DNA of 29,878 nucleotides from positions 1 through 29,878 of the IMG/VR virus record IMGVR_UViG_3300009068_000132. One strand, written 5' to 3'. Made by a program: the position numbers and the translations under genes. Positions 5,865-27,766 of this stretch are shown one piece after another; positions within the stretch are counted from its first letter, which is position 1, and every line of letters begins with the position of its first letter. Below the pieces are notes generated by a model. That model searched no databases and was not told the origin of the DNA. It was given only the letters and a program-made list of their open reading frames with translations. The stretch is from a virus.

Positions 5865-5873
5865 GAGGTATAA

Positions 5874-6167: not shown

Positions 6168-6179
6168 AAGGAATACTTC

Positions 6180-7621: not shown

Positions 7622-7631
7622 GGAGATTATA

Positions 7632-7931: not shown

Positions 7932-7951
7932 GTGAACCCATGGAGGACACA

Positions 7952-12685: not shown

Positions 12686-13158
12686 TAGTAACCTACAACA
12701 AGCATATTAGAAACGCATTGTACACTTTTAACGCCAGACGATCCTGATCCTCCACCAATAACATCAAAGATACTGGTAGTTACATCAACAGCCCCTCTTG
12801 GCTCGGCATAAACAAAAGAATACAAACCCCTGCTTTTTATAAATACTTCCTGGTCCACAGTCAAACCTTGTGTCACTATTGGGTTTGATATAGAAAAAGT
12901 GCTTGGGGTTCCTGTTGTACCAGGATCAACTACAGTTCCTGATCCAGCAACTTCATCATCATGCAAAGACAATCCATTTTTGGTTGCTGCTATTGCAGTC
13001 CACCCATAAACAAAAAGAGCATCACTGCCACTCGGTGTTATTTCTCTAGACTGTGTAATGCGTACATGTATTAAAGAAATTTCGGAAGAATCTAAAAATA
13101 AACTATCACCAACTTGCCCTAAAGATAATCCAGTCTGATTTGTTGATTCAAGCTTCAT
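12685..13158 (-). CDS. Small structural protein, unknown
   Basis: 157 residues. The start at 13158 overlaps the upstream stop (ATGA) and is preceded by GGAGGG. The first part contains DSLFLDSSEISLIHVRITQS; a flexible GGGSGSSG piece lies near the C-terminus, ahead of a last strand with one Cys (SVQCVSNMLVVGY). This looks like a modular tail protein with a linker. It is the first of the six appendage-type genes after the sigma-like gene. Function unknown. Confidence 0.6.
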   Translation of the reverse strand: MKLESTNQTGLSLGQVGDSLFLDSSEISLIHVRITQSREITPSGSDALFVYGWTAIAATKNGLSLHDDEVAGSGTVVDPGTTGTPSTFSISNPIVTQGLTVDQEVFIKSRGLYSFVYAEPRGAVDVTTSIFDVIGGGSGSSGVKSVQCVSNMLVVGY

Positions 13159-13757
13159 CGTGCCCTCCTATGTCCACCAGGAATGTATCGTGCATCAAAT
13201 TTGATGGTAGGGGCCTCGCACACTTGCTTCTGCGGAGTTCCTCCGTACACATCGACTCGCTCGCTCATTTCCAAAATCAATTTGTCCGCAATAGCATCCA
13301 ATGCGTCGTGTACAAAATACGAATCCTCGCCTATAGCCTCCGCAATTGCTTTAAGCGTGAATCCATACACATATCTACACACCATTATATAGCCTTCAAT
13401 TGGCGTTAGGACACCAGAGTCCATCACTAAATCTTTTACACGATCCATTCCAGACATATGATCATTTGCTTTTAGATTCTTCCACCGATTTTTGGATATT
13501 TGAAACTCCAAATTAGAGCTTGGTATTCTCTTCATTTCTTCCATAACTAAAACTGGAATAGTTGATTCAAAATACCAACTATTGCTTCCCAGCATCTTGT
13601 CCATGACACTGTCAAACATCCTGTCATAAACATCATCAACATTGCCTTCAATATTTGCGGTGGACAGATACGATTTCACTCTGTCCATGACGACCACAAA
13701 CAAGTCCCAGTCTTCTTGCAGGGGCTTGTTATAAATGTGCTGTGTTAACCACCCCAT
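13155..13757 (-). CDS. Diverged sigma-70-like / HTH protein
   Basis: 200 residues from ATG 13757, overlapping the end of the polymerase gene by 13 nt. The N-terminal two thirds are helical (DLFVVVMDRVKSYLSTANIE, STIPVLVMEEMKRIPS), like sigma region 2 but without clear -10-recognition residues. Residues about 117-162 read as region 4 or a related helix-turn-helix: LTPIEGYIMVCRYVYGFTLK followed by AIAEAIGEDSYFVHDALDAI. The order L.P.E.......Y..G.....IAE..G.....V...L..I fits sigma region 4. The basic tail (PGGHRRAR) is unusual. It sits between replication and late appendage genes, a sensible place for a late-gene activator. Sigma function is inferred from fold pattern and order. Confidence 0.5.
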   Translation of the reverse strand: MGWLTQHIYNKPLQEDWDLFVVVMDRVKSYLSTANIEGNVDDVYDRMFDSVMDKMLGSNSWYFESTIPVLVMEEMKRIPSSNLEFQISKNRWKNLKANDHMSGMDRVKDLVMDSGVLTPIEGYIMVCRYVYGFTLKAIAEAIGEDSYFVHDALDAIADKLILEMSERVDVYGGTPQKQVCEAPTIKFDARYIPGGHRRAR

Positions 13758-15511
13758 GATTTTCCCACACCTGCTTCCACTTCGCAAGGGACAGTTCCCA
13801 ATAATGGTTGCATTGCATTCACCATAATTGTTTTTAGCCACTCTGCTACGCTATCAGCCTGAACCGTAGGGCACATAAGGACAATTTCATCGTGAACAGG
13901 CATGAGCATGGTCATCTCAGGCCAATCGTTCCTCTTGCTCCACACCTCAGACAAAGCTTTCTTCATACCATCTGCGGAATTGGATTGAATCGGAGTATTA
14001 CACTTCTTGGTGAACTGCTCCTGCCACTTCCAATTTCCCCAACGGTCCAGCTTCAGCTTAGGCCCCATGCCTCCCCGTGTCCTACCCCATTTGGTCCGAA
14101 AAATCAATTTACCAGGTTGTTTCATTTTTGCATGATATCGCTTTAGGCCTGGGTAGGTCTGGAAAAACTGCTTGCGCATTTCTTGCAAGTCTTCCAATGG
14201 AAGCAGTATACCCCAGTTCTTTGCCAGCGTTGTCCGCAGCGTTTTTGCTCCACAGCCATAGATCAAACCGAAGTTCAATGCTTTCGCCAGGGTGCGATCC
14301 TCCTTGGTGGGACGATCTTTCCCGAGGACATCCTTGGCCGTCTTGGTATGCAGATCTACACCATTACGAAATGCCTCTTGCATATTTGTTTCCTTTGCCA
14401 CCCAGGCAATCATTCTCAGCTCAATGGCCGAATAGTCGGCTTTGACAATTGAGAAGCCTACAGGGGCAACAAACGCCTTCCTATGACTGCCTCTAGGAAT
14501 CTGTTGCAGATTCGGAGAATTACAGGAAAACCTTCCGGTCTCTGGTCTACATTGCATAAACTCAGCATGGACTTTGGCATCCGCTCCAATATGTGCCAAC
14601 CATTCTGGCCCAAAAGTTTTGATGATCTGGTCTGCCTTACGCCACTCCATGATCTTAGACACAAAATCATTGTCTGTGTGCATACACAATTCATCTTTGC
14701 TGGTAGACTTCAATGTCAAACCAATCCGACTGGCGGCAGCTTTAATATCCCAGTGCTTTCTCCAATTCCATGGTGTGTTGATAAATGTCCTGGGAGGAAC
14801 CATTTCCTGTAATTCAGAATTCAATCGAGTTCTACGCTTGACCGCTGCATTGTACAAAGAGATCCATTTATTTTTGTCAACATTTACTCCGTTCAGCCTC
14901 ATCCAGATGGTAGCCTTGAGAACTTTGTGTTCCAGCCTCCAAATGGTCCTAAGATTATTCTTGGCAATCTCTCTATACAGAATCCTGTGGAGATCTAATA
15001 AGACAGCCGTATCCTTGGCGGCATACTCCAGTTGCGCCAAGGAAAGTTCTCCTGACCAATCTGACTTCTGGAGAACTTTGTCTACTTCAATTCCCATTCG
15101 GTCATACAAGACCGATCCCAAAGAGTTTGATACACCGAATCCGCAATTCAGCAGGAAGCTTCCAATGAAGGTATCCCTCAGTGAATTTGCTGCGAAATCA
15201 AATCCATATTGAATCAGGAACGGTGCATCAAATGCCCAGTTGTGGGCGACTATCACTTTACGCCTTAAGGACTGAATGAGACTGGACGGATCCACCTGGT
15301 CACAATCAATCACCCACGGATTTTCTCCGTCTACGCACAGGCTTAACAGCCTCATCCGGCTTGTGTGAAATGGCTTTAGTCCCGTTGTCTCCGTGTCCAA
15401 CGCCAACAAATCCACGCCTTGTAGCACAGATTGGACAGACATTAACTGAGAATGATTGGTCACTAGCGTGAAATTTGTAGGAGCCACACCAACTGATGCC
15501 GCATGAAACAT
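13745..15511 (-). CDS. Family A DNA polymerase with 3'-5' exonuclease domain
   Basis: 588 residues. Start at ATG 15511, five bases after GGAGG; an in-frame ATG at 15523 lacks a site. Exonuclease motifs are complete: D39 and E41 in LALDTETTGL, VAHNWAFDAPF with D95, and Y163/D167 in YAAKDTAVLLDL. Polymerase motif A is KADYSAIELR (D359, E364; Ala where Gln is usual), motif B RTLAKALNFGLIYG (R406, K410, F414, Y418) and motif C PVHDEIVL (D541, E542). F414 equals Phe762 of E. coli Pol I, so ddNTP discrimination is expected. There is no 5'-nuclease domain, as in other phage PolA enzymes. It replicates the phage genome with the primase-helicase encoded upstream. Confidence 0.95.
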   Translation of the reverse strand: MFHAASVGVAPTNFTLVTNHSQLMSVQSVLQGVDLLALDTETTGLKPFHTSRMRLLSLCVDGENPWVIDCDQVDPSSLIQSLRRKVIVAHNWAFDAPFLIQYGFDFAANSLRDTFIGSFLLNCGFGVSNSLGSVLYDRMGIEVDKVLQKSDWSGELSLAQLEYAAKDTAVLLDLHRILYREIAKNNLRTIWRLEHKVLKATIWMRLNGVNVDKNKWISLYNAAVKRRTRLNSELQEMVPPRTFINTPWNWRKHWDIKAAASRIGLTLKSTSKDELCMHTDNDFVSKIMEWRKADQIIKTFGPEWLAHIGADAKVHAEFMQCRPETGRFSCNSPNLQQIPRGSHRKAFVAPVGFSIVKADYSAIELRMIAWVAKETNMQEAFRNGVDLHTKTAKDVLGKDRPTKEDRTLAKALNFGLIYGCGAKTLRTTLAKNWGILLPLEDLQEMRKQFFQTYPGLKRYHAKMKQPGKLIFRTKWGRTRGGMGPKLKLDRWGNWKWQEQFTKKCNTPIQSNSADGMKKALSEVWSKRNDWPEMTMLMPVHDEIVLMCPTVQADSVAEWLKTIMVNAMQPLLGTVPCEVEAGVGKSWGG

Positions 15512-15534
15512 CACTTCCTCCATTGTTTACACTA

Positions 15535-16077
15535 TCACTGGATTGATACCCTGCCAGATAAAGCAAAGATTTTGGTTGGGTTGATGCAGTATAAGTCTTT
15601 GGCTGGATCCCCAGGTTTTGCATGCACAAATTTTTGTGTGCATGTTCCTTGCATCGGTCCGAATTTGTCAGCCATCGATACAATGCCCAAAAGCTGTTGT
15701 CGTGGGATGCCATAAAAGGTAAACTCCTTGTTGTCACCGGCTTCCTTGACGAAGTGATACCACCAGTCAAACTGGTAATGTTGACTCCGACCGGGAACCT
15801 TCACATCGTTCGGATACTCCCAGCGTTCCCACAGCAGGTCACGATACTGAGAATGGTATGTTGGCCGAACAGACACTTGGACAGAATAGGAAACATCTTT
15901 GTCCATGAACACAGCATCATGCCCGGAAATGTCGTCAACACTTCCTCCTGTTGTCGATTTTATCGTTAATGGAACTCCTGCCGCCTGGTAGTACGATTCC
16001 AAAGCTTTCAACAAGGATATAGTCAAACTCGCTGACACATCGTACCTATGCCATTTTGGTTGATCTGCGAAGTTCAT
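15535..16077 (-). CDS. Possible PDDEXK-type nuclease, unproven
   Basis: 180 residues, GAGGG about seven bases before ATG 16077. Residues 50-85 carry ISGHDAVFM, then YSVQVSVRP and YRDLLWERWE. This order (Asp strand, then a Q.(S/K).R strand, then YRD) resembles a phage group with a restriction-endonuclease-like fold in which G.D......VQVK.R is followed by YRD. The usual Lys of the (D/E/Q)xK motif is Ser here, so activity is doubtful. A helical N-terminus and FDWWYHFVKEAG follow the pattern. It is 11 nt upstream of the polymerase gene, which supports a DNA role. Other folds cannot be excluded. Confidence 0.4.
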   Translation of the reverse strand: MNFADQPKWHRYDVSASLTISLLKALESYYQAAGVPLTIKSTTGGSVDDISGHDAVFMDKDVSYSVQVSVRPTYHSQYRDLLWERWEYPNDVKVPGRSQHYQFDWWYHFVKEAGDNKEFTFYGIPRQQLLGIVSMADKFGPMQGTCTQKFVHAKPGDPAKDLYCINPTKIFALSGRVSIQ

Positions 16078-16111
16078 TTAACACCCTCATTAAGACTATT
16101 GGGTCAAACAC

Positions 16112-16342
16112 TTACCACCCTAAGTAACTGGTGCAATCCCTCTTAGTCACATCTATGACAGGTTTTGGAGGCTCAATCTCATTCGCTAAATCGATCAATG
16201 CTCTACCAATCTTCCTAGCTTCCTGTGCAGAAAAATACATGGTAAATCGGCGTTCACAGGGTTCGATTATGATGATTTCGGCATATGCTTCAACACGATC
16301 TGTACAGAGTGTAGTATCCCATTTATCCTTGAAAGTCTGCAT
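16112..16342 (-). CDS. Small unknown protein downstream of the ncRNA terminator
   Basis: 76 residues from ATG 16342, which has GGAG nine bases upstream. A longer in-frame version from GTG 16402 would begin inside a strong terminator hairpin and is rejected. The sequence has a strand pair (VEAYAEIIIIEPCERRFTMY) followed by a helix (SAQEARKIGRALIDLANEIE) and a Pro-rich tail. No family is recognised. Because it lies just past the terminator of the candidate RNA, expression probably needs read-through or a separate start point. Confidence 0.6.
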   Translation of the reverse strand: MQTFKDKWDTTLCTDRVEAYAEIIIIEPCERRFTMYFSAQEARKIGRALIDLANEIEPPKPVIDVTKRDCTSYLGW

Positions 16343-16370
16343 TTCTTTGGACTCCAGTCTAGTTTCCCGA

Positions 16371-16408
16371 AATAATAAAAGCCTGGGCTTGTTTCCAAGC
16401 ACCAGGCT
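16371..16408 (-). terminator. Rho-independent terminator of the candidate RNA
   Basis: On the - strand AGCCTGG pairs with CCAGGCT, a single T is bulged, GCTTG pairs with CAAGC, and the loop is GAAA. The stem (16380-16408) is followed by TTTATTATT. Twelve base pairs plus a U-rich tail make a good intrinsic terminator. It ends the RNA from 16806 and insulates the polymerase/appendage genes from upstream transcription. Confidence 0.75.
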
Positions 16409-16806
16409 CTCATTCTACCGGTCCTACGGTAAGATCATTGCGCTGGGAAGCTGCTGCTTGACGCACTTCGCCTTCAGCAGCAGCATGTGGAGTGACAGGA
16501 AAGTGCTAAAACATCCCCTCCTACCCCAGCGCAAAGAGCCAGCCAACCGAATCGAACGGTTGTACCAAGTGCTGTTCCTACTTGATAGTGTCGAGCCTAC
16601 CCCGAGGTAAACAGCCTCATGCGGGGTGAACTCGCCAACACGCTGGCAATACCTACTCAGTAGTTCACGCTAGTTGATCCTAAAGGATTTAAGCCTGAGT
16701 AGGTAAGTGAAGCAAAGAGGGTGCCATCCTCTATTTTCCCTATGCGCAGGGGTGTCCTAGTGTTAGACGATTGCTTCAGTGTAGACTGGCTTAATTCCAG
16801 TCTACA
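16371..16806 (-). ncRNA. Candidate structured RNA, about 430 nt, no known class
   Basis: No gene is supported in this stretch, the only long gap in the window. Perfect or near-perfect helices (plus coordinates): 16780-16789 with 16797-16806 (10 bp); 16708-16715 with 16771-16778 (8); 16716-16720 with 16728-16732 (5); 16738-16741 with 16748-16751 (4); 16650-16660 with 16695-16705 (11); 16599-16604 with 16622-16627 (6), capped outside by 16592-16595 with 16631-16634; 16545-16549 with 16557-16561 (5); 16440-16447 with 16525-16532 (8) enclosing 16450-16458 with 16476-16484 (9); 16416-16420 with 16427-16431 (5). The 16545-16561 arm read on the - strand has a tRNA-like T-loop, G-TTCGATT-C. The - strand is favoured by that loop, by a wobble pair at 16638/16643, by an extended -10 box at its 5' end and a terminator at its 3' end. 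tmRNA, RNase P and tRNA hallmarks are absent. Confidence 0.6.
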
Positions 16807-16811
16807 TTTTT
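16780..16811 (+). terminator. Hairpin with + strand T-tract (terminator or RNA 5' cap hairpin)
   Basis: TGTAGACTGG (16780-16789) pairs perfectly with CCAGTCTACA (16797-16806) around a 7-nt loop and is followed by TTTTT on the + strand. Read on +, it is a textbook terminator, although no + strand gene is nearby. Read on -, the same stem is the first element of the candidate RNA and could protect its 5' end. It may do both and stop antisense transcripts. Confidence 0.55.
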
Positions 16812-16820
16812 ACTATAGCA
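16812..16820 (-). promoter_or_regulatory. Extended -10 promoter for the candidate RNA
   Basis: The - strand reads TGC-TATAGT (16820-16812), an extended -10 element; no good -35 box lies 17 bp upstream. Transcription would start near 16805, exactly at the base of the first hairpin. It overlaps the end of the upstream gene only by its spacer. Host or phage sigma use is unknown. Confidence 0.4.
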
Positions 16821-16822
16821 TA

Positions 16823-17365
16823 CTAAAAAGGCAATTCTTCGGTTTGTGGAAAACCTTTTTTAGGAGGACTGGTAGGATCCACCGGATCACTAGATGGAGG
16901 CGTTACCCGCATTTTCCTAAGGGAAATCATCCAAGCGTCTTGTTCTGTATTCTTGAAGAACACAATCCTCCCATCGGCTTTCAACGACTGAATGGCTTGG
17001 TTGTACGCATTCCTGGTTTCTACCGTCCTTGTAAACAAATCCTTAAACATCTGATTTCCTGGTACTTGTTCAAGTTGTGCCAGAACATCAGCCTTGGCCT
17101 TAGCCAATACCTCGGGATCCACAGGAGGAGCGTTGTACGATCCACCTCCGCCAGGCTGGTAAGTAGGTTTTGGGCCAAAATACACAAAGTCTTTGCTGTG
17201 AATCTTTCCTTCTTCCTCAATCTTTTTGATGTACCCAAATGGAGATGCCCAGTCTCCAAGTCCAAGAGCATCCTTGATTGCTTTAGCAACCTTAATCTTT
17301 TCCACACCACCTGGTGCAGATTCTGCCATTTTCATTGCAATCGCCCGTGCCTGATCCATCGACAT
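16823..17365 (-). CDS. Winged-helix-like protein with SSB-type acidic C-tail
   Basis: 180 residues, AGGAGG seven bases before ATG 17365. Residues about 1-60 look like a helix-rich, winged-helix-type DNA-binding domain (KVAKAIKDALGLGDWASPFG, YIKKIEEEGKIHSKDF). A Pro/Gly-rich linker (QPGGGGSYNAPP) leads to a second helical part with KADGRIVFF. The protein ends PKKGFPQTEELPF; acidic residues followed by a final Pro-Phe are the hallmark of the tail with which single-strand DNA-binding proteins recruit replication partners. It lies directly downstream of the primase-helicase gene. A replication accessory or ssDNA-binding role is inferred; an OB fold is not visible. Confidence 0.5.
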   Translation of the reverse strand: MSMDQARAIAMKMAESAPGGVEKIKVAKAIKDALGLGDWASPFGYIKKIEEEGKIHSKDFVYFGPKPTYQPGGGGSYNAPPVDPEVLAKAKADVLAQLEQVPGNQMFKDLFTRTVETRNAYNQAIQSLKADGRIVFFKNTEQDAWMISLRKMRVTPPSSDPVDPTSPPKKGFPQTEELPF

Positions 17366-17374
17366 GTCAACCTC

Positions 17375-19150
17375 CTAGTAAAGATCTTCTTCCTCACCAT
17401 TGTTATCCTCAGAAACCCAACTACGGATCTCCACGGATGCAAAATTGGACAAGATCCGTTTAGGATCACCAGCCAATTTTATCTTAGCAGAATCGATTCT
17501 GCGTTGTGCTTCAGATACATCCATGGATGTAACATTGAATCTCATAATTCCACGATTTGCCCGGAAATTTGCCTTGACAATCCGCATCTCACGGTACCCA
17601 TTCTCAGATGGATTAACCATCAAGGTAGAACGGGAAAGATTAGGAATGCCTACAGACCCCAATACATTTGTAACATTGGGTGGAGCATTATTTTTCTTCT
17701 TTTCCCGAGATGGCTTATTAATGTGAACAAGGCCAATATACGCAGTGTTCAGTTGTAACTCATGCGTAATCTGAAGCAATTGCTCCAAAGTTTTTCTGAT
17801 TTCCTTGTTATTGTTTTCGTCTCCACCAAGATAACTAGTCAATGGATCCAGAATAACTAGTTTGGGTTTTCTGGCGGATAACAGTGCTCGTACGGAATCC
17901 GGATCATCCAGGTCAATCATCCCGTCCCGCAGGACAAAGATTCGCTCTAATGCTGCGCCTTCACTAATAAGTCTGGGCAGCAACTCAGTTTCGACCCCTT
18001 CTTCCCGAGACACCCATATCACATTTCCTCGGGGTACTGGTCCTGTGTAATCCTGGGGCCCAAGTCCAAATACCCGTTTACCCTGCGAAACCCTAGCAGC
18101 AATATGTCCGCAGAGAGAAGACTTTCCTGCTCCACCTCCGCCAGCCAGAACACATAGTGACCCAGTTAAAATCAAGCCTGGCACAAGAAAATCTCGACCA
18201 CGAAGGACAATATCAGGATGCGCTAAGGATTCAAAGTTTGCACCACATGGAAGCCGGAATCCGGTTGTGCTTGGGTCCAATTGGAAGGAAGGAGTATTAA
18301 GGACGACATCATAAAACATGTCAATGTCCCTTTCCTCCAGCCAGTCCACAATATCCTTTCCATCTGTGTCATGTGGCCATAGGTCAACAACCTTAATAGA
18401 TGCTGCGCCTAAGGATTCCATGTCCAAAGCAATGTCAATTCCATGGGCTCGTCCTACTTCATCCGAGTCCACCAGGATAACAATGTTCCTTCCTGTGAAA
18501 TAGTGTTTAAGTCGGTGCGCAATCTTATTCCATTTTCCTGCGCCACCTGGGTTTGTCGTGACAACCATATTGTCATAGGAGCCAAGGTATTCTGCTGCCT
18601 TTTCCCCTTCAACAATGTAAATTGTACCGGATGAGTTCATAATCTTGTTCAGATTGTACGGAGGTATTTCCGTACCCGATACTACTTTGAATACCCAGCG
18701 TCCTTGCTCATTTCGTGACTGTTGGAAAAAAGCCTTCTTGGTTACACCATGAACAACAGGATCACTATCCCTGCGTATGACACGCAGTGTGTCCATTCCA
18801 TTGTCGTCGCTATAAACATAAGTCTTCGTAATAGGCCATGAAAATATGTCCCATTGATCTGTTTTAACAGGAGCCAAATCTTCTGCGGTCAAATCAGGCC
18901 CGTTGTGCTTTTCGATGATTTCTCCATTAGGAGAAAATCCTAAGCCAACAGCACGAAGAATGTTCTTAGCACTACAACCATGTGAAAAGCAATGCAGCAA
19001 GACTTTTTGTGTATCGGACACAGAAATGGACAATGATGGATTATTATCTTTGTGTGATGCACAACACGCAACATATTCACCTTGGCGAATAGGAGTGAAA
19101 TGCTTCAGACGATGCTTGAGCAAATCCAATTGAAATTCTACCGAGATCAC
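17375..19150 (-). CDS. Primase-helicase: zinc finger, TOPRIM and RecA-fold ATPase
   Basis: 591 residues. I choose GTG 19150: it forms a GTGA overlap with the upstream stop and has GGAGGAG five bases ahead. The N-terminal zinc site is C30xxH33 with C54....C59 (CHC2-like). The TOPRIM core has EGEK at 181-184, DSD at 228-230 and GKDIVDWL after it. The ATPase has Walker A AGGGGAGKSS (337-345) and Walker B LVILDPLTS (431-435), then GLVHINK, as in RepA/AAA_25 hexameric helicases. The chain ends in an acidic tail (EDNNGEEEDLY). One polypeptide therefore should prime and unwind at the fork for the family A polymerase, as T7 gp4 does. Family order is clear; helicase activity is inferred. Confidence 0.9.
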   Translation of the reverse strand: MISVEFQLDLLKHRLKHFTPIRQGEYVACCASHKDNNPSLSISVSDTQKVLLHCFSHGCSAKNILRAVGLGFSPNGEIIEKHNGPDLTAEDLAPVKTDQWDIFSWPITKTYVYSDDNGMDTLRVIRRDSDPVVHGVTKKAFFQQSRNEQGRWVFKVVSGTEIPPYNLNKIMNSSGTIYIVEGEKAAEYLGSYDNMVVTTNPGGAGKWNKIAHRLKHYFTGRNIVILVDSDEVGRAHGIDIALDMESLGAASIKVVDLWPHDTDGKDIVDWLEERDIDMFYDVVLNTPSFQLDPSTTGFRLPCGANFESLAHPDIVLRGRDFLVPGLILTGSLCVLAGGGGAGKSSLCGHIAARVSQGKRVFGLGPQDYTGPVPRGNVIWVSREEGVETELLPRLISEGAALERIFVLRDGMIDLDDPDSVRALLSARKPKLVILDPLTSYLGGDENNNKEIRKTLEQLLQITHELQLNTAYIGLVHINKPSREKKKNNAPPNVTNVLGSVGIPNLSRSTLMVNPSENGYREMRIVKANFRANRGIMRFNVTSMDVSEAQRRIDSAKIKLAGDPKRILSNFASVEIRSWVSEDNNGEEEDLY

Positions 19151-19512: not shown

Positions 19513-19527
19513 TTCAGTCTCCTTTCC

Positions 19528-19563
19528 AATAAAAAGGCCCCGGTAGTTTCCTACCGGGGAGCC
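19528..19563 (-). terminator. Intrinsic terminator after the Sak4-like gene
   Basis: On the - strand CCCCGGTAG pairs perfectly with CTACCGGGG (19538-19546 with 19551-19559), loop GAAA, flanked by GG/CC closing pairs and followed by TTTTTATT. It lies just after the stop of the ATPase gene at 19571. It shares the GAAA loop with the terminator at 16371-16408. It divides the long leftward unit. Confidence 0.85.
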
Positions 19564-19570
19564 TATAAAA

Positions 19571-20548
19571 TTAACCCTTTGCTTCCAAATCCTTAGTCAC
19601 TTTCAAAATTACTTCTTTCAACTTGGTATTGGCAACCGCTGTAATATCCTCCTTTCCGAAATGTTTCGCCAACTGCGGAAACCAAATGTTGGTATCCCTT
19701 TTTATTTTGATGGCAAGATCTTCTAGCTTGGTCAAAAGCTTCTGCTTCTCGGTTACATCTGGCTCGACTTCATCTTGTGGAATGATTTCAGGAACAGCAT
19801 TAACTACGACCTCTTCTGGAACATTTTGGTCGATGTTACCATTGTCCAAAATATTTAGTAACAATTGTCCGACTTCGATTCCAGGCTTGTCAAACAGTTT
19901 GTTAGCAATTCCAAACAGTCGAGTCTTGCCAATAAAGCCACGATGATCCTCATTGATTGTGAGGACATTGTCCATGTCATACTCAATTCCATTTCCAGCG
20001 GTTTGTCTCCAAACAGGCTCAAGACCCAACTTTTTGATTTTGGCTTTCTGCCCAGGTTCTTTTTCAATTTCGTATGCCATCTTTGCCCGGACGCACACCA
20101 TCAAATGACAAGGAAAATCTTTCAACCTTTCCAGTAACTTGTCAATCTTTGGCGTGACAACCTTCCACCCGGCAAATCCGTTTCCGCTAGACATGGCCCC
20201 GATCTCATCGACCTGCTCCATGATTCCGCCTTGACCATTCCAGAAGGAACTAAGGCTGTCAATGATGACCGCATCATATTTGGCAGCAACGGCACCTGCC
20301 AGGGCTTCGTGAAGCTTTTCCAGCGTATACGGAGCTCGAATCACACAAGTGTCAAACCCTCCAGGTATGTGTTTGGCGTATAGATTCTCCTTCCCACCTT
20401 CGGTGGAAATCATCGCAATCCGTCCTTCTGGTCCAACCAGTCCTCGACTGATTAGAAGACTGGACATGGTTTTCCCTGCGCCTGCTACTCCTACAATTGC
20501 CATGGTCAGCTTGACGGATGTAGTTTTTGCTGCTTTAAACATCGACAT
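19571..20548 (-). CDS. RecA-like / Sak4-type phage recombination ATPase
   Basis: 325 residues, AGGAG seven bases before ATG 20548. Walker A is GVAGAGKT at residues 20-27; Walker B is DAVIIDSLS at about 92-100, followed by SFWNGQ. Residues to about 235 form a single RecA-type ATPase core (ISTEGGKENLYAKH, CHLMVCVRAKMAYEIE). The C-terminal 90 residues are a Pro/acidic linker (VPEIIPQDEVEPDV) and a small helical domain. Phage proteins of this build (AAA_24, Sak4-like) promote strand annealing or recombination together with an SSB. The presence of RusA and a possible SSB-like protein in the same unit fits. ATPase call firm, recombinase role from family knowledge. Confidence 0.85.
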   Translation of the reverse strand: MSMFKAAKTTSVKLTMAIVGVAGAGKTMSSLLISRGLVGPEGRIAMISTEGGKENLYAKHIPGGFDTCVIRAPYTLEKLHEALAGAVAAKYDAVIIDSLSSFWNGQGGIMEQVDEIGAMSSGNGFAGWKVVTPKIDKLLERLKDFPCHLMVCVRAKMAYEIEKEPGQKAKIKKLGLEPVWRQTAGNGIEYDMDNVLTINEDHRGFIGKTRLFGIANKLFDKPGIEVGQLLLNILDNGNIDQNVPEEVVVNAVPEIIPQDEVEPDVTEKQKLLTKLEDLAIKIKRDTNIWFPQLAKHFGKEDITAVANTKLKEVILKVTKDLEAKG

Positions 20549-21341
20549 TTCGAATCTCCTGGAAAAAATCTGTCAATTCACTCAATGGTCGGAATTTCGA
20601 TAATTCCATCCTTACCATTGTCTCATCGTCACTAGGCATTCCGCTGGGAAACTTTCCCGGCGTTATGCTACGACCCATTGTAGCAAACTTCATTGCGTCT
20701 GCCCAAAGAATTGTTTCAGAGGCATAGACCACAATCACAGGACGCAAGGAATAGGCCTGCGCCACTGATTGTATTGCCTTTAGTTTTCGTTCTGTAAACA
20801 AAAACGAAACATTTGGAGTATTAATCCAAGGGAATGAATAAGCATCAACCAGGATTTCTGGCTTGCCCTTTTGACCAAGTATCGCATCCCATCCACCAAT
20901 AGCGTGGTAAGGGACAAGCGACTCTTGGCCCCACATAGCAATAATTTTTTCAGATATCTGCTTTGTGTGCATAGGAATAGATGTGTCATAGGACCACATC
21001 CTTCTGTGATTATATCCTGATGAAATGAACCCAAAATATTCTGAAGGCTCATAGGTATCAAAGAGGATACCCCCTCGGTTGCCGTCCATCCATGCATTAA
21101 GATCCTGAATGGATATCCTGGCCAACAATGGATACCAGTCATCGTAAAAGTCATATCCGCAAAAAAATCCTTCTTCTAGGATTTCCTCACAAATGTCTTG
21201 CCTTTCTTCCTCCGTCATCCTTCGCAAACTACACCACAACCCAATGATACCATGCAAGGCACCACTGGATGTGATATAAATTGTCCGGTTAACAGCAGAA
21301 CATGGGACAAGAAATTCAGACACAGGCTTTGGCTTAGGCAT
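20535..21341 (-). CDS. Unknown 268-residue protein
   Basis: Start ATG 21341 overlaps the upstream stop by 8 nt; a TTG at 21371 is in frame but less likely. The end overlaps the ATPase start by 14 nt, so co-translation is likely. The protein is mixed alpha/beta; a segment PEILVDAYSFPW..... FLFTERKLKAIQSV followed by LRPVIVVYAS looks like a nucleotide- or nuclease-type core but no complete motif is present. It is encoded between a small protein and the recombination ATPase. No family recognised. Confidence 0.6.
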   Translation of the reverse strand: MPKPKPVSEFLVPCSAVNRTIYITSSGALHGIIGLWCSLRRMTEEERQDICEEILEEGFFCGYDFYDDWYPLLARISIQDLNAWMDGNRGGILFDTYEPSEYFGFISSGYNHRRMWSYDTSIPMHTKQISEKIIAMWGQESLVPYHAIGGWDAILGQKGKPEILVDAYSFPWINTPNVSFLFTERKLKAIQSVAQAYSLRPVIVVYASETILWADAMKFATMGRSITPGKFPSGMPSDDETMVRMELSKFRPLSELTDFFQEIRNVDV

Positions 21342-21651
21342 TTTCCGTAAAATCAGAATGCCTTTCGTCAATCATATCCTGCGCATTTTCATCGTTGTCG
21401 TATTGATCCCAATCATTCACTGCCAATCCCGGAAACCCAAGACTTTCGCCTCGAATAATCGGCAGATCTTTTGGTGCTGTCACACGGATCAGGCCATTGG
21501 TTCGGCCTGTGTCGAGCAACTCAACACAAATGTAATGGTTATTGGCAAGAGGCAACCAGAGCTTATCCCCAATCTTACGGACGAGTTGTAAGGATCCGTA
21601 AGTATGCGGATGAGACACCGGAGGAACAAAATCAAATTTTCTAGACATCAT
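21334..21651 (-). CDS. Small unknown protein
   Basis: 105 residues. The ATG at 21651 overlaps the RusA stop (ATGA); a second ATG follows directly. The sequence is strand-rich first (SLQLVRKIGDKLWLPLANNH, GLIRVTAPKDLP) and ends in an acidic, Asp/Glu/Asn-rich tail (NDWDQYDNDENAQDMIDERH). No family recognised. Co-translation with the RusA gene suggests a DNA-metabolism accessory. Confidence 0.6.
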   Translation of the reverse strand: MMSRKFDFVPPVSHPHTYGSLQLVRKIGDKLWLPLANNHYICVELLDTGRTNGLIRVTAPKDLPIIRGESLGFPGLAVNDWDQYDNDENAQDMIDERHSDFTENA

Positions 21652-22046
21652 CACACCTTTCTTTGGTCTTCACTCAGTTCATGCACCAACACATCACAGT
21701 ATGCTGGTCCAGATTCTTCGGCTTTACCCATGTATTCCTGGGTATTCTTCTGTAATACATCATAGTGATCATCCACAATAACGCATGCCCTGACCAGTAG
21801 ATCTCCAATGGCTTTTTCCATATTGGAAATGTCCCGGCCTTTTCTAAGTCCTTTACCTCCAAACACTTGGATATGAATATGGCATAGGGAAATGGGAGGA
21901 TATTTTCCCATTTGTTCTTCCACAATTGCCTGGTTCAAATCAATCCATGTTCGGTATTTTGGGTTAAGGAAGTTTCCATTTTTTCCTCGATGCCAAATAG
22001 AATTGACACTAGGAGGAATTGTCATACGGAACTTGTGTGTTTTCAT
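21651..22046 (-). CDS. rusA: RusA-family Holliday junction resolvase
   Basis: 131 residues from ATG 22046, with AAGGAG five bases upstream; a longer in-frame start at 22079 is less likely. RusA features: N-terminal PPSVNSIWH, FLNPKYRTW, and the catalytic block GRDISNMEKAIGDLL followed by VIVDD. D72, K78 and D92/D93 match the metal-binding and catalytic positions. The second Asp of the common RDxDN motif is Ser (S74), which may change metal use. It cuts four-way junctions made during replication and recombination, probably before packaging. It clusters with the Sak4-like ATPase and nucleotide enzymes. Confidence 0.85.
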   Translation of the reverse strand: MKTHKFRMTIPPSVNSIWHRGKNGNFLNPKYRTWIDLNQAIVEEQMGKYPPISLCHIHIQVFGGKGLRKGRDISNMEKAIGDLLVRACVIVDDHYDVLQKNTQEYMGKAEESGPAYCDVLVHELSEDQRKV

Positions 22047-22078
22047 CACATCTCCTTTTTGGGATGTGACATTGTACA

Positions 22079-22321
22079 CTAAATGGTTCCTATTGGAATT
22101 TCAGATTCAAGTTCTGATATAACAATACTTAGACATTCCCTTGCTTTTTTCAGATCTTCTACTCCATTTTTGCTTCTCCACCTCCATTCATATTTTATGG
22201 CACATCCAATCATGTAATCACAAAAAGCTTCTAATCCTAAAGCTGCTTTCTGAGCTTTGTGACAGTGAATGCTACTGTCATCTTTTGGATAATAATGCTT
22301 AGGCTTTACCGGGTCACTCAT
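22079..22321 (-). CDS. DUF3310-family protein
   Basis: 80 residues with the family pattern: DPVKPKHYY at the start, a central ALGLEAFCDYMIGCAIKYEW, and KNGVEDLKKARECL. DUF3310 occurs widely in phages and is the core of T7 gp1.7, a nucleotide kinase that acts on dTMP/dGMP; whether stand-alone copies are kinases is not settled. Here it sits next to dCTP deaminase and ThyX, consistent with nucleotide metabolism. Family assignment firm, activity inferred. The start at 22321 overlaps the upstream stop by four bases (ATGA). Confidence 0.85.
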   Translation of the reverse strand: MSDPVKPKHYYPKDDSSIHCHKAQKAALGLEAFCDYMIGCAIKYEWRWRSKNGVEDLKKARECLSIVISELESEIPIGTI

Positions 22322-22671
22322 CGCAATTCTCCGTTCAAATCTTCCAGGAATTTCATTGCCACTGCATCTATATTAACATTACCGTTCTCAATAAAAATCC
22401 TGGAAATGTCACAAAAGTTCAAGTTGACCCATTTGTCCCCGTAAGGAATCCGGGTAACCAATAGCGGAGTGATTTTGGCATCATAATCACATAATCGCCA
22501 CAATTCAATTACCCGATATTCTGGCCACAGGCGATCATCAATCGAGTAAATCCCCATAGCCACTTTGGTTCCATCCCGGTACAGGGAGAAATCGGCATAC
22601 TCATCATCGATGCTTAGATAAGTCCCTCCAGTCTTTTCCCAAGCTTGCTTGACGGCATCTTCTATGCCCAT
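22318..22671 (-). CDS. Small unknown protein in nucleotide operon
   Basis: 117 residues from ATG 22671, overlapping the end of the dCTP deaminase gene by 10 nt; AAGGA lies about ten bases upstream. The same frame is open far into the deaminase gene but that part is a shadow. The protein is alpha/beta with aromatic residues (LSIDDEYADFSLYRDGTKVA, RLWPEYRVIELWRLCDYDAK). No known family. Its placement suggests a helper for nucleotide or DNA metabolism. Confidence 0.55.
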   Translation of the reverse strand: MGIEDAVKQAWEKTGGTYLSIDDEYADFSLYRDGTKVAMGIYSIDDRLWPEYRVIELWRLCDYDAKITPLLVTRIPYGDKWVNLNFCDISRIFIENGNVNIDAVAMKFLEDLNGELR

Positions 22672-23195
22672 TTGTGGGATTCCTTCCACAACCCAGACGG
22701 CATTGGCAATGCCTGATCCTGGTACTTTCCAATGTACAGTTTTGGTTCTCCAGTCAAAGTATGAAACACAATTTGACCGATTTCCATTCCTGCGTAAATC
22801 CACAGTGGTTGTACCACTGATAGTTCCAATGTCCATGTTCCATCAAACCCTGGGTCTCCCCAGCCTGCTGAAATATGGATCTCCAATCCTAACCGCCCTA
22901 CCGAGGATCTCCCTTCCAGTACAGGAGCATAATGATCCGTATGGATCCGTTCTACGGTATGACCCAGATACACTGTTCCAGGTTGAAGCAAGAGTCCTTC
23001 CCTGGAAGGTATTTCAATTCGGCTGGTAGGCTCCTGTAGTTTACAGTCCAGAACCCTGTTGTTGTATGTAACAATGGTGTTTCCCAGCGTAACATTCAAA
23101 CTTACAGGACTAATCTTCGCAGGGGAATATGGTAAAACCGTAATCCTTCCGTTTCTAATTTGATCTGCAATTTCCCATCCAGTTAAGACGGCCAT
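22662..23195 (-). CDS. dcd: dCTP deaminase (dUTPase superfamily)
   Basis: 177 residues, close to the bacterial Dcd length. The superfamily motifs are present: EGRSSVGRLGL (R96, S97, S98, R101), SAGWGDPGFDGTWTLEL with catalytic-type E124, IYAGMEIGQIVFHTL, and YIGKYQDQ near the end. It converts dCTP to dUTP, feeding dUMP to thymidylate synthase; a bifunctional deaminase/dUTPase cannot be excluded by eye. The gene overlaps thyX upstream by 13 nt, so the two steps are probably made together. Confidence 0.9.
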   Translation of the reverse strand: MAVLTGWEIADQIRNGRITVLPYSPAKISPVSLNVTLGNTIVTYNNRVLDCKLQEPTSRIEIPSREGLLLQPGTVYLGHTVERIHTDHYAPVLEGRSSVGRLGLEIHISAGWGDPGFDGTWTLELSVVQPLWIYAGMEIGQIVFHTLTGEPKLYIGKYQDQALPMPSGLWKESHKWA

Positions 23196-23986
23196 CCTAC
23201 TCTCTCCACTAAGTGCCTAAGTTGCATCCATCCATCCAAGTTTCCTGTTTTCATTGACCAAGGCATGGCCACATGCTCAAATGGAGACCAATGATTGTCT
23301 GCTGCAAGTCGATCTGCCAATTTGATGTCCGCATCTACATCTCGAATCCCATTGTGGTTGTCGTAAGATACTCTAGCAATCCTGGCAACCACAATTTTCT
23401 GTTTATCACTTACGGAAACATCTGGCAGATCCAATCCAAAAGGGAAATGCCATTGTAAATACTCAATATGTGTAGGTGTGGAAGCATCATACGCAATTTT
23501 CATTGCCTGGGCCAACTCTTGCATTTCTGGCTGCGCCGCATGATGCAGTCGCTGAGAAAAGAAATTGTCCAGACCTTTTTTTGTTGTGGTCATGATTACC
23601 TTAACCCACATAAACGGTTCAAGGTACCGATTAACAATTTGCTTATGAACTCCAAGTTGTGCTAAAAACTTGGCATGCTCTATCATATGGTTCAACGCAA
23701 GTCTTGCATTCATTTCCGCCATAGTAGCGTAAAAAGGTTCAAGATTTGAATCCGAGAACATGCCAGGCTTATTCACACCCCAAACTTTTGGGATATAGGG
23801 GTTCGCTTCCACTTGGGCAATCAGTTTTTTCGTGGGTATTGCCCTACTGGATGCCGTATTTCGGGAGAACGCCCTGTGTGTGTTGAACTGTGCAAGGATA
23901 AACCGAGGAAAGTTCAATACAAATGTCGTACACCTCGTATAGGGATCATTCGCCACCGAATCTGCAATTACTGACGCACTAAGCAT
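23183..23986 (-). CDS. thyX: Flavin-dependent thymidylate synthase ThyX
   Basis: 267 residues from ATG 23986, with AAGGAG six bases upstream. The ThyX signature appears in its phage variant: FNTHRAFSRNTASSRAIP (H37, R38, S41, S46, R48), where most bacterial enzymes have RHRxxSxNExSxRY. Also present are HKQIVNRYLEPF, NFFSQRLHHAAQPEMQELA and the C-terminal NHWSPFEHVAMP. It methylates dUMP to dTMP using FAD, NADPH and methylenetetrahydrofolate. With Dcd it forms a dCTP-to-dTMP route for phage DNA synthesis. Confidence 0.95.
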   Translation of the reverse strand: MLSASVIADSVANDPYTRCTTFVLNFPRFILAQFNTHRAFSRNTASSRAIPTKKLIAQVEANPYIPKVWGVNKPGMFSDSNLEPFYATMAEMNARLALNHMIEHAKFLAQLGVHKQIVNRYLEPFMWVKVIMTTTKKGLDNFFSQRLHHAAQPEMQELAQAMKIAYDASTPTHIEYLQWHFPFGLDLPDVSVSDKQKIVVARIARVSYDNHNGIRDVDADIKLADRLAADNHWSPFEHVAMPWSMKTGNLDGWMQLRHLVERVGWPS

Positions 23987-24150
23987 TCCGAGCTCCTTCC
24001 TACTATTTCCCAAAGATCCTTGTTAGCTTCATTCTCCAACGCTGTATGGTAACACTTACTATTCTCCAAAAGAGTTTTATGTTGAAGAATGGCATATTCC
24101 AGCTTATGCACCCTGGCTATTAGCCATTGAATATCGGGAGTGTCACTCAT
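23968..24150 (-). CDS. Small helical protein, unknown
   Basis: 60 residues from ATG 24150 (GGAG then AAGAGG just upstream). Most of it is one predicted helix (IQWLIARVHKLEYAILQHKT, ENSKCYHTALENEANKDLWE), coiled-coil-like. It overlaps the stop of the small membrane protein upstream (the bases ATGAGTGA are shared) and the start of thyX downstream. The frame extends upstream to 24246 but that part conflicts with the membrane ORF. Function unknown. Confidence 0.55.
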   Translation of the reverse strand: MSDTPDIQWLIARVHKLEYAILQHKTLLENSKCYHTALENEANKDLWEIVGRSSECLVRQ

Positions 24151-24250
24151 CCTCTTCTCCCTCTCGACTGGTGCGCTCCAATTTGCACATGGAGTCGATG
24201 ACCAGCCATATTGCCACAACAACCCATACAAACAAAGGGATGTCATTCAT
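24143..24250 (-). CDS. Micro-protein, single membrane span with acidic tail
   Basis: A 35-residue ORF. It begins MNDIPLFVWVVVAIWLVIDS, one clear transmembrane segment (residues 5-21), followed by a short charged tail rich in Glu (REGEEDE). It overlaps the sigma gene's stop by 8 nt (ATGAATGA) and its own stop overlaps the next start by 8 nt. AGGAGA lies about ten bases before its ATG. A similar ORF sits beside another sigma gene at 26923-27018. Real translation is likely; a role as a membrane anchor or regulator is a guess. Confidence 0.55.
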   Translation of the reverse strand: MNDIPLFVWVVVAIWLVIDSMCKLERTSREGEEDE

Positions 24251-24743
24251 CAGGATCTCCTATGTGTTGTTTAATCTTGATTAGTGCTTTTCGACAAATA
24301 AATGCAATTCTGCTTTTAGACATTCCGAGTTCTTTTGCAATCTCCCGGAACGGTTTGTGATTATAAAACCATTCCAGTACAATCTTTTTTTCTTTGGCTT
24401 CCAAATTTTTGTCGATAAATTCGGAAATTTTGTCGTACAGCATAATGTCAGGGGTTTCGGGAAGATATTCAACTTTATGGTCGTAATAGTCATTTACGAA
24501 CACTAATTGCTCAGGCTTCCACATATTCTTCCTGGCTTCCATTACCGCAAACCGTACGGTGGTAAAAATCCAGGTAGACAGTTTACCTTTCTCTGGATTG
24601 AATGACTTGGCCTGCGCCATCAGTCGCATCCAAACATGCTGACCCATGTCGGATTTGATTTGGTTTTCTGTTAGTTTGTTTGCATGCATTGCCTTGTACA
24701 CAAGGCCGATGTTTTGACTAATCAATTCACTAGTGGCAATCAT
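24243..24743 (-). CDS. Sigma-70-family RNA polymerase sigma factor
   Basis: 166 residues from ATG 24743 (AAAGGA five bases upstream). Residues 5-75 match sigma region 2: NIGLVYKAMH, then SFNPEKGKLSTWIFTTVRFA and VMEARK, the helix that melts and reads the -10 element. Residues 112-160 match region 4: NLEAKEKKIVLEWFYNHKPF then REIAKELGMSKSRI...C.RKAL. Size and layout are those of ECF-like two-domain sigmas. It would direct RNA polymerase to a set of phage promoters. It overlaps the next upstream sigma gene by 14 nt. No anti-sigma of known family is adjacent, only a micro membrane protein. Confidence 0.85.
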   Translation of the reverse strand: MIATSELISQNIGLVYKAMHANKLTENQIKSDMGQHVWMRLMAQAKSFNPEKGKLSTWIFTTVRFAVMEARKNMWKPEQLVFVNDYYDHKVEYLPETPDIMLYDKISEFIDKNLEAKEKKIVLEWFYNHKPFREIAKELGMSKSRIAFICRKALIKIKQHIGDPDE

Positions 24744-25287
24744 TGAATTCCTTTCTTCGCTCCTCGACCAAGTAATCAACACAGTACTTGACTGCGGAAA
24801 ATACACTGCCCTTAGGCATACTCATTGTCTTGGATACATCCAACTGAGTGTATCCGTCCAGAATCAACCTCATCACCTGGCGTTTGTCCCTTGGAAGATT
24901 CCAAAGTTTTTTCCTTACCCATTGCATCATGAACTCAATGTCAAGCTTGGTATCGACCACATCGGTGGCCATACCGAAGGACTCAATTTCCACCAGCGAA
25001 ACCTGGTTCCGTTCATAAAGCTTTTGTTTTGAGAATTTGGCTCTTAGTGCCGAGGCACTTTGGAAAATCGCAGACTTACCTATAAAAGTAGAGTCTTTGA
25101 TGTCAGGGCATTTATGCCTGTTTCTTACCCAGTTGCATAGGCACAAAACCAATGCATCTTGTTGTGTGTCATGGTCATACTTGACCATTTGTGCTCTGGC
25201 CACTTTGTGGACTTTATCTACTCGATCCCTTTCCTCGTCGGTTAGCGGTCGAATATTGGTCCGTCTGTTCACTTTCACTAAACTCAT
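24730..25287 (-). CDS. Second sigma-70-like factor, more diverged
   Basis: 185 residues, AGGAGG about seven bases before ATG 25287. The region 4 helix-turn-helix is clear at about 128-175: NLPRDKRQVMRLILDGYTQL, DVSKTMSMPKGSVFSAVKY. Region 2 is recognisable but altered (VKYDHDTQQDALVLCLCNWV, STFIGKSAIFQSASALRAKF), with FIGKSA in the place of the usual FxxW/Yxxx core. The basic N-terminal 20 residues are extra. It is translated directly ahead of the third-region sigma gene at 24243-24743. Sigma family call good; promoter specificity unknown. Confidence 0.75.
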   Translation of the reverse strand: MSLVKVNRRTNIRPLTDEERDRVDKVHKVARAQMVKYDHDTQQDALVLCLCNWVRNRHKCPDIKDSTFIGKSAIFQSASALRAKFSKQKLYERNQVSLVEIESFGMATDVVDTKLDIEFMMQWVRKKLWNLPRDKRQVMRLILDGYTQLDVSKTMSMPKGSVFSAVKYCVDYLVEERRKEFNDCH

Positions 25288-25310
25288 TTCTCATCCTCCT
25301 TATTTGAATT

Positions 25311-25529
25311 TTAGATGATCACTTGCTCGGCAAGATCCACCGCATTGAGGAGATTTCTCAAATCCGTGAACTGATCTTTGGTTAACTGAATCCCCACGCC
25401 AATCCTTTCCCTTCCTTCTTCTTCCTGAAAAATATTTAACTTGAATACATCAGGATGTTCATAGCTGGCCACCACTCGCCAATCATCCAGCACAATTTCG
25501 CCTTCAAATTCGACTTGTTTAGTTTTCAT
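25311..25529 (-). CDS. Small unknown protein
   Basis: 72 residues, AGGAGG six bases before ATG 25529. It looks like a compact beta-beta-alpha protein (VEFEGEIVLDDWRVVASYEH, IGVGIQLTKDQFTDLRNLLN) with an acidic surface. No family recognised. It lies between the sigma pair and another small gene and is likely co-transcribed with them. Confidence 0.6.
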   Translation of the reverse strand: MKTKQVEFEGEIVLDDWRVVASYEHPDVFKLNIFQEEEGRERIGVGIQLTKDQFTDLRNLLNAVDLAEQVII

Positions 25530-25683
25530 TGTTTACCTCCTGTATCTTAATTTGTTTCCCAGTTTCGATTCGCTCGATGATCACTCGATCATTCTCCCGC
25601 CGGACGATGCGCCATTTTAAAGCCTCCAAAAAGGACTCAAAGGTTGCTTGATTATTTGTTTCAGGGGTACTGTCTTTACTCAT
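25519..25683 (-). CDS. Small unknown protein, 54 residues
   Basis: The ATG at 25683 overlaps the stop of the upstream gene (ATGA), with AAAAGGA just ahead (GGAGGAAAAGGA). The chain has an N-terminal polar part, a helix (FESFLEALKWRIVRREND) and a basic strand (RVIIERIETGKQIKIQEV). It overlaps the next gene by 11 nt and carries that gene's AGGAGG inside its own coding sequence. No family recognised. Confidence 0.6.
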   Translation of the reverse strand: MSKDSTPETNNQATFESFLEALKWRIVRRENDRVIIERIETGKQIKIQEVNNEN

Positions 25684-26039
25684 TCCTTTTCCTCCACATA
25701 GATTTTACCACCACCCAGTTTAATCAGAAGCTTGAATTCTGACAGGGTAGTGCCTGCCGGAATTACTACTGGCGTAGCATCATCCCACCTGGATGTGGTA
25801 AGCCATGGAATAAAACCGTTGTTGATTTCTTCAACACAGTAACTGGAATTGTATCCGCCTCGTTCTGCCGGTGTCTCAAAAGATCCTTCATAGCAAAGCT
25901 TTACAGTATAGGAACTAGGAGCATAGGTATTGTGTTCGTATGGCCTTTTGTTCCATCCGTCACCGTAAACTTCACTCAAAGGCAGATCTGTGAAGTATGC
26001 CCATTGGTCTTTCACATAACACAGTTTTGGTTCACTCAT
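25680..26039 (-). CDS. Conserved phage protein of unknown function
   Basis: 119 residues from ATG 26039, AAAGGAG eight bases upstream; a longer in-frame start is less likely. The order AYFTDLPLSEVYGDGWNKRP, YEHN, FETPAERGG, SVEEINNGFIPWL-like and AGTTLSEF...I...GG.(I/V)YV is one I recognise as recurring in phage early regions, but no function is known to me. It may be a small beta-rich regulatory or inhibitory protein. Tightly spaced with the small genes on both sides. Confidence 0.65.
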   Translation of the reverse strand: MSEPKLCYVKDQWAYFTDLPLSEVYGDGWNKRPYEHNTYAPSSYTVKLCYEGSFETPAERGGYNSSYCVEEINNGFIPWLTTSRWDDATPVVIPAGTTLSEFKLLIKLGGGKIYVEEKE

Positions 26040-26085
26040 TGCCCACACTCCTTTCATTTCTTTCAAATTGCAACACGAATAGATC

Positions 26086-26388
26086 CTACGCATCCTCTGA
26101 AAAATCATTCTCAAGAACTTCTGTTATTTTTGGCAGTAGATCCCACAGCCAAGCATCTTCAGGAGTCCGCCGATAATATTGAACCTCCCTGTGATGTTCC
26201 AATTCCAGTTTCACAGCCAAGAGCAAAACACGAAGGCTTGTGGCCTTTATTCGCCACTCCGATGCCCGTTTTGTGGAATAGATGAATTGTTCAAACCAAA
26301 TGTCATCCATATCTTCATCTTCCGTTGGCTCCACCGGTACATTTCGCTGAGGATCCAGCCCTAGCGCAGATCGCAATAGTTCCCACAT
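26086..26388 (-). CDS. Small helical unknown protein
   Basis: 100 residues. ATG 26388 is chosen because AGGAG lies eight bases upstream; ATG 26394, overlapping the sigma stop (TAATG), is too close to it. Longer in-frame versions reaching 26574 would overlap the sigma gene heavily. The protein has an acidic segment (EPTEDEDMDD) and long helices (KATSLRVLLLAVKLELEHHR, DAWLWDLLPKITEVLEN). No family recognised. Coupled to the upstream sigma gene. Confidence 0.55.
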   Translation of the reverse strand: MWELLRSALGLDPQRNVPVEPTEDEDMDDIWFEQFIYSTKRASEWRIKATSLRVLLLAVKLELEHHREVQYYRRTPEDAWLWDLLPKITEVLENDFSEDA

Positions 26389-26393
26389 TCTCA

Positions 26394-26933
26394 TTACTCC
26401 TGCAATGCGTCCAGCGTCACGCCGGACAAGAAAAACCGTAGGCTTTCTAACCCACGCCGTTTCAGAACACCAACCCGTGCCTCGGAGATCCCGAGGTAGG
26501 CAGCAATCTGTATGTTGGTCCGATCCTGAACATAAAACATGTCCAGTATTGTCCTCATCCTCGGTTCCAGGCACTGTACTGCCTCGGACAGTTGACTAAA
26601 AACTATGGATCTGTCCAAACTTTCTAGCTGATCCTGTTCCGGTTCCGGGGCTGGCTTGTCCAAATCAAAGAGAACGGCCTGAATTTGCGTTCTGGCCGAC
26701 TTTTTCTTGTAATTCGACGCAAGACCCATCAAGGCCAGTTTTGCGCTCTTATAGATAAATGTAGAGGGTTTGCTGCGGGATGGGTCGTAGTTATTGGAAA
26801 ACATCCGGAGGATTCTGACAGCCAGGTCCTGGACATCATCCTCGGTGAGGTTCAGAGCCCACCCCTTCCTGGCACGGTTTGCCCGGTAGATGGCGGAGTA
26901 TATCAGCTCATGATCCAATGCTTCAGGACTCAT
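26394..26933 (-). CDS. Third clear sigma-70-family factor
   Basis: 179 residues; ATG 26933 is preferred (AGGTG six bases upstream), with GTG/ATG alternatives at 26942 and 26939. Region 2 at about 8-75: ELIYSAIYRANRARKGW, DDVQDLAVRILRMF, SNNYDPSRSKPSTFIYKSAK. Region 4 at about 113-168: LSEAVQCLEPRMRTILDMFY, VQDRTNIQIAAYLGISEARV, LKRRGLESL. Between them is a Pro/acidic linker. It is the first sigma gene downstream of the promoter near 27570, so it is probably the earliest made. The 24-nt upstream ORF overlap (26923-27018) suggests coupling. Confidence 0.85.
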   Translation of the reverse strand: MSPEALDHELIYSAIYRANRARKGWALNLTEDDVQDLAVRILRMFSNNYDPSRSKPSTFIYKSAKLALMGLASNYKKKSARTQIQAVLFDLDKPAPEPEQDQLESLDRSIVFSQLSEAVQCLEPRMRTILDMFYVQDRTNIQIAAYLGISEARVGVLKRRGLESLRFFLSGVTLDALQE

Positions 26934-27018
26934 CGTCATCACCTACCAGCCACAGGGACACCCATGAAATAAGGGCCACCAGCAGTAAGCCGGTGGCCCA
27001 TGCGATCACATCACGCAT
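26923..27018 (-). CDS. Micro-protein, single membrane span with acidic tail
   Basis: A 31-residue ORF. It reads MRDVIAWATGLLLVALISWV and continues hydrophobic to residue 25, then ends with three Asp, a Glu and a Ser. It overlaps the upstream stop by 8 nt (ATGCGTGA) and runs 11 nt into the sigma gene. Its layout (short start, one span, acidic end, 8-nt overlap, sigma gene next door) mirrors the ORF at 24143-24250. The ribosome site is weak. Function unknown. Confidence 0.5.
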   Translation of the reverse strand: MRDVIAWATGLLLVALISWVSLWLVGDDDES

Positions 27019-27508: not shown

Positions 27509-27536
27509 CCACATCCTTTCACTCGCATCACACAAA

Positions 27537-27551: not shown

Positions 27552-27558
27552 TCGCACT

Positions 27559-27751: not shown

Positions 27752-27766
27752 TAACATAAACTAAAA

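Follow-up and report, generated by a model that had tools for sequence, protein, structure and literature searches.

Several phages encode sigma factors of their own. SP10 has three of them, "like SPO1" (PMC9429907), and the multi-sigma examples that we met, SPO1 (132 kb) and SP10, are both large Bacillus phages. Sigma-dependent promoters have been mapped for phiEco32, with the element tAATGTAtA, and for 7-11, with GTAAtg-16-aCTA (PMC8948821). Two further arrangements are relevant here, namely the sigma-plus-gp33 pairs carried by group-2 jumbo phages (PMC7824862) and the sporulation-type sigmas of Bacillus phages, which are dispensable for lysis (PMC9429907). The phage described below carries two certain sigma factors and one probable one in about 50 kb, which is uncommon; the family is known, and number and arrangement are a variant.

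The window, that is the whole stretch analysed, is a 29,878-base IMG/VR virus record. Its sister record (IMGVR_UViG_3300027971_000071; 48,395 bases) matches window positions 2324-29878 at 99.7-100%, and as the right end of this record equals window 6-131, the genome closes into a circle and measures about 50 kb. Two fragments (L006 and L110) represent a second relative, which is 97% identical. Terminase, portal, tape-measure-like and tail genes are read rightward from the second half of the sister record into window 1-8296, and the genes for replication (primase-helicase, AAA protein, dCTP deaminase, ThyX, RusA-like resolvase and polA) are read leftward, starting at the far right. The same minus-strand run also includes a set of tail-type genes and reaches down to window position 8293. 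Among the listed genes we noticed none for a phage RNA polymerase, and therefore the host polymerase is probably used.

Three observations concern other parts of the genome. The terminase large subunit (L015 1361-2872) has its nearest counterpart in a virus assigned to Methanomicrobiales archaea (36.5% vs about 29% for the next), which contrasts with the sigma factors, as these imply a bacterial host. Two overlapping frames at L015 11074-11867, ahead of the tape-measure-like gene, resemble the usual frameshift pair of tail assembly chaperones. To the right of the window, L014 12000-15000 is GC-rich (up to 66%, vs 43% GC for the genome), with a strong AT skew and few convincing genes.

Scanning the 48-kb sister record with the sigma family model TIGR02937 identified exactly four places, which are those of the four genes in question (E values, listed from the strongest match to the weakest, 2e-17, 4e-17, 7e-5 and 4e-3). 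In the window these genes and the adjacent polymerase gene are as follows:

24243..24743, minus strand: S1, sigma-70 family protein with regions 2 and 4, 166 aa (Pfam, TIGR02937)
24730..25287, minus strand: S2, probable ECF-type sigma, 185 aa (NCBIfam sigma match, similarity to RpoE)
26394..26939, minus strand: S3, sigma-70 family protein, ECF/FecI-like, about 180 aa (Pfam region 4, TIGR02937, FecI)
13155..13757, minus strand: S4, conserved gene with a region-4-like helix-turn-helix (region-4 match with E 0.067, dN/dS)
13745..15523, minus strand: polA, family A DNA polymerase, the gene immediately preceding S4 (PHROG, 1.5e-104)

Judged by their sequences, S1 and S3 are certain, compact sigma-70 family proteins. 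S1 contains both region 2 (Pfam Sigma70_r2, 6e-8) and region 4 (Sigma70_r4, 1e-6), each above its cut-off, and reaches 58.9 bits with TIGR02937 (4.5e-16; curated cut-off 42.9). S3 scores almost the same with this model (58.7 bits, 5e-16, again above 42.9) and passes the Pfam cut-off for region 4 (2.5e-9); its region 2 is weak at 0.06, below the Pfam cut-off. Using small region-2 and region-4 profiles built without the tested protein and 200 shuffles for each test, both halves of S1 as well as of S3 beat 200 of 200 shuffles, including region 2 of S3. The two proteins are also similar to each other, S3 resembles FecI, and S1 is similar to the sigma of the Fusobacterium phage phiRTG5 (26% over 95%, E 8e-4), with none of 1000 shuffles being as good in any of these three comparisons. 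Among species genomes, only FliA-type sigmas were found as relatives of S1 (29-33%). Searches of IMG/VR (S1, S2) and of the phage collection (S1-S3) revealed no close homologues outside the sister record; besides it, S1 and S3 each gave weak matches.

S2, which is preceded by the strong Shine-Dalgarno sequence AAGGAGG, is probably an ECF-type sigma, with an N-terminal half that is without independent support. Its sole Pfam match is Sigma70_r4_2 (E 0.01) and its top NCBIfam match is a sigma family (3.6e-5), all of them below the curated cut-offs of both collections, and TIGR02937 matches nearly the full length with 17-18 bits. Its alignment to E. coli RpoE begins at the helix of region 2.4, extends almost without gaps through region 4 and has a score reached by none of 1000 shuffles, while seven non-sigma proteins gave nothing; for the match to RpoE the BLASTP E is 1e-4. 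The region-4 profile score is 23, and the match of the first 110 residues to the region-2 profile is marginal, as 10 of 200 shuffles were as good. The AlphaFold model (pLDDT 50) and its Foldseek comparison with the PDB were uninformative, and a PDB sequence search with S2 found no sigma. Thus, of the three proteins to which the first-pass annotation ascribed region 2 and region 4 patterns, S1 and S3 have both, and S4 does not.

In order to judge such scores, TIGR02937 was also applied to other phages. It identified two places in SPO1 (64 and 35 bits) and one in phiEco32 (23 bits), and in T4 it missed the gene-55 area and instead matched a site close to the end of the record (21.5 bits). In other phage records, matches as weak as that of S4 (11-14 bits) also occurred by chance, some of them spanning stop codons. 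As known phage sigmas are found so unevenly, a low score neither proves nor excludes a phage sigma; known ones do no better under this model, with 23 bits for phiEco32 and gene 55 of T4 missed. Among 78 other polA-bearing viral records five have one sigma above the cut-off and none has two, counts that are lower bounds as many of the records are fragments; the earlier statement that this phage has more sigmas than usual therefore holds. The relatives identified through polA are distant and have no sigma neighbourhood in common with it.

S4 is a different case. Its dN/dS against a 96%-identical relative is 0.26 in its own frame vs 0.75 and 1.03 in the other two, and this substitution pattern marks it as a real gene under selection. 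Its top Pfam match is Sigma70_r4 (E 0.067), and none of 200 shuffles was as good as its region-4-like helix-turn-helix; region 2 is not detectable, with 106 of 200 shuffles as good. The region-4 profile score of 26, like the 23 of S2, has to be compared to 30-42 for the non-sigma proteins UvrY, SdiA, RcsB and LacI. We rejected a region-4 match alone as proof of a sigma, because LuxR-type proteins and LacI give such matches too, as does a locus of T4 that is distant from gene 55, and since LuxR- and LacI-type proteins score at least as high as S4, its match is read as "helix-turn-helix" and not as "sigma". Pairwise comparisons revealed weak similarities to RpoE (N-terminal; 10 of 1000 shuffles did as well), to a viral sigma of the primary type (2 of 1000) and to the TerS-like protein of the phage itself (17 of 1000), and BLASTP against RpoE found nothing. 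The AlphaFold model (pLDDT 44) and its Foldseek comparison with the PDB were uninformative, a PDB sequence search found no sigma, and the only close relatives of S4 in IMG/VR and the phage collection are the sister record and a 9.4-kb fragment. Of the four sigma-70-like proteins originally proposed all genes are present with correct coordinates and frames; two are certain and one is probable as a sigma, and the fourth is undecided. In an unrelated polA-bearing phage the gene directly after polA also encodes a helix-turn-helix protein (L019 10836-11411), which may be a coincidence.

The analysis established the presence, domains and gene order of the sigma-type genes. Read leftward, the order begins with S3, which is separated by several small genes from S2 and S1; next come ThyX and the genes for replication, then polA, S4 and the tail genes of the minus strand. 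S1-S3 lie within 2.7 kb of this gene run, in which Shine-Dalgarno sequences are common. S2 and S1 are indeed encoded back to back with an overlap of 14 nt, as had been noted before. S4 shares 13 nt with polA and 4 nt with the gene that follows, leaving no promoter-sized gap before it; it lies between polA and the minus-strand tail genes and is not a demonstrated sigma. The main structural operon is encoded on the opposite strand, with its start at a distance of about 21 kb, and therefore this layout is not described by a late sigma that precedes the structural genes. The suggested cascade of an early sigma, a middle pair and a late one is not supported either, as S1-S3 are neighbours in one leftward run and not the heads of separate gene classes.

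The search for promoters led to a single repeated control region, whose parts are listed together with a hairpin ahead of S3:

27766..27783, minus strand: 18-nt dyad box ACATTACGAAAATGTAAT, containing AATGTAAT, ahead of leader copy 1
27622..27735, minus strand: structured leader copy 1, leftward unit (alignment, fold z -3.6, covariance model)
L014 16475-16588 of the sister record, plus strand: structured leader copy 2, before the rightward structural operon (alignment, covariance model)
26973..26999, minus strand: terminator-like hairpin 30 nt upstream of S3 (11-bp stem, 9 G-C pairs)

The leader element spans about 95 nt (GTCTAGGAGC...GACGACGAC...GTGACGA...AAATCGAGGTCATCCGAGATTT...GAGGAACC) and has two copies in the genome; a covariance model search of the genome found no third. 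All 10 pairs of its main stem are kept with three compensatory changes, in a comparison of the only two distinct sequences that exist, and sliding the partner strand destroys the pairing. No Rfam family is like it, and a host search of 84,980 species genomes did not find the sequence. The box ACATTACGAAAATGTAAT is located upstream of each leader copy, with identical sequence in the window and at the late operon of L110 and with 3 mismatches in the sister record (box and leader copy 2 within L014 16413-16588, plus strand), separated from the leader by 35 and 46 nt of unrelated sequence. In the pieces searched we counted five copies of its core AATGTAAT, and four of these lie in sense non-coding DNA, where it is the commonest 8-mer; as it was found post hoc and 28 of 300 shuffles (9%) reach four, this enrichment is suggestive only. 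The box resembles the mapped phiEco32 and 7-11 promoter elements (PMC8948821), and the 7-11-type pattern GTAAT-N-CTA is scattered, mostly within genes. The only repeated motif that an exact bipartite promoter search gave between genes was the leader stem, and sigma-70-like promoter matches were not in excess (25 vs 29 ± 5 in shuffles). The presence of box and leader ahead of the leftward unit and again ahead of the rightward structural operon suggests a shared control, and since this sole repeated control region serves the leftward unit as well as the late rightward operon, common rather than stepwise control appears to apply. Distinct promoter types for early, middle and late genes, for which a motif search had been recommended, were thus not found.

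Two more elements were observed on the minus strand. At 27550-27590, between the leader and the gene at 27011-27535, a perfect TTGACA is followed 18 nt on by an AT-rich -10-like sequence, which makes this a candidate host-type promoter. The 420 nt at 16403-16822 contain no genes and fold to -167.8 kcal/mol (shuffles -134.9 ± 6.4, z -5.2), with a CyVA-1 RNA match at 16445-16526 that is below threshold (28.6 bits, gathering threshold 41.4); the relative's fragment L006 does not have about 114 nt from the middle of this stretch, which is possibly an undescribed large phage RNA.

Taken together, we consider it rather likely that the phage uses its own group-4-like sigmas S3, S1 and probably S2 on the host core polymerase at phage promoters, because S1 and S3 pass curated cut-offs and shuffle tests and S2 is RpoE-like. 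Encoded near the front of the leftward early/middle gene run, their mRNAs would first be made by host sigma-dependent transcription, and the proteins would then bind the host core RNA polymerase and direct it to phage promoters, which may be the box and leader regions ahead of these two main units, the leftward one and the structural operon. As their genes overlap, S2 and S1 are probably made as a pair, forming either two holoenzymes or a sigma with its helper. The leader RNA may help the polymerase to pass the hairpin at 26973-26999 and a second one at 19538-19559, and S4 would be a helix-turn-helix protein made late in the leftward run.

A rather unlikely alternative is that only S1 and S3 are sigmas, S2 being a region-4-like co-factor translated with S1, like gp33 of T4 and SPO1, and S4 an ordinary helix-turn-helix regulator or packaging-type protein. 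The signal of S2 is indeed mainly region 4 with a marginal first half, its gene overlaps that of S1, and group-2 jumbo phages provide a precedent for such pairs (PMC7824862), but a near-gapless alignment to RpoE that covers regions 2.4 to 4 would be unexpected for gp33-type proteins. Going in the opposite direction, it is very unlikely that all four proteins are sigma factors in a temporal cascade, even if the sites of these four genes are the only ones that TIGR02937 matches in the 48-kb record and S4 combines its helix-turn-helix with a weak N-terminal resemblance to RpoE: region 2 of S4 is undetectable, BLASTP gives no match to RpoE, non-sigma helix-turn-helix proteins match equally well, the genes are not placed at separate transcription units, and a search for separate promoter classes found none. 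Quite unlikely, too, is a phage of about 50 kb with four sigma-type proteins of its own, S4 being reduced to region 4, and with the leader as a possible antiterminator at both units. S1-S3 might also redirect host programmes instead of phage transcription, as known for the sporulation-type sigmas of Bacillus phages that lysis does not depend on (PMC9429907). This we regard as very improbable, as S1-S3 are ECF-like rather than sporulation-like and lie inside the core replication gene run together with candidate phage promoters.

If the preferred reading with phage sigmas on the host polymerase is true, two certain sigmas and one probable one, two of them overlapping, would offer a small system for studying how a phage divides its promoters, and box and leader at the two main units are directly testable promoter candidates. 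Compared to the group 4 (ECF) sigmas RpoE and FecI, which likewise consist of regions 2 and 4 only and have a similar length, S2 is like RpoE and S3 like FecI, but no anti-sigma or signalling partner was seen beside the phage genes. The closest phage sequence found for S1 is the sigma of phiRTG5, a 37-kb phage with one strong sigma in a region with an excisionase-type gene. SPO1 (gp28, gp34/gp33 and gp2.21) and the SP10 homologues share with our phage the presence of several sigmas and, as proposed here, their use in a middle/late programme, whereas SPO1 is a 132-kb Bacillus phage differing in genome and gene order, with no detectable orthology. In phiEco32 (gp36) and 7-11 (gp47) a divergent phage sigma takes the host core polymerase to middle/late promoters, as proposed here, and their elements tAATGTAtA and GTAAtg resemble the box of our phage; gp36 was compared with S1-S3 through the shared family model alone, and phiEco32 has one sigma in a 77-kb genome, whereas here two or three are found in about 50 kb.
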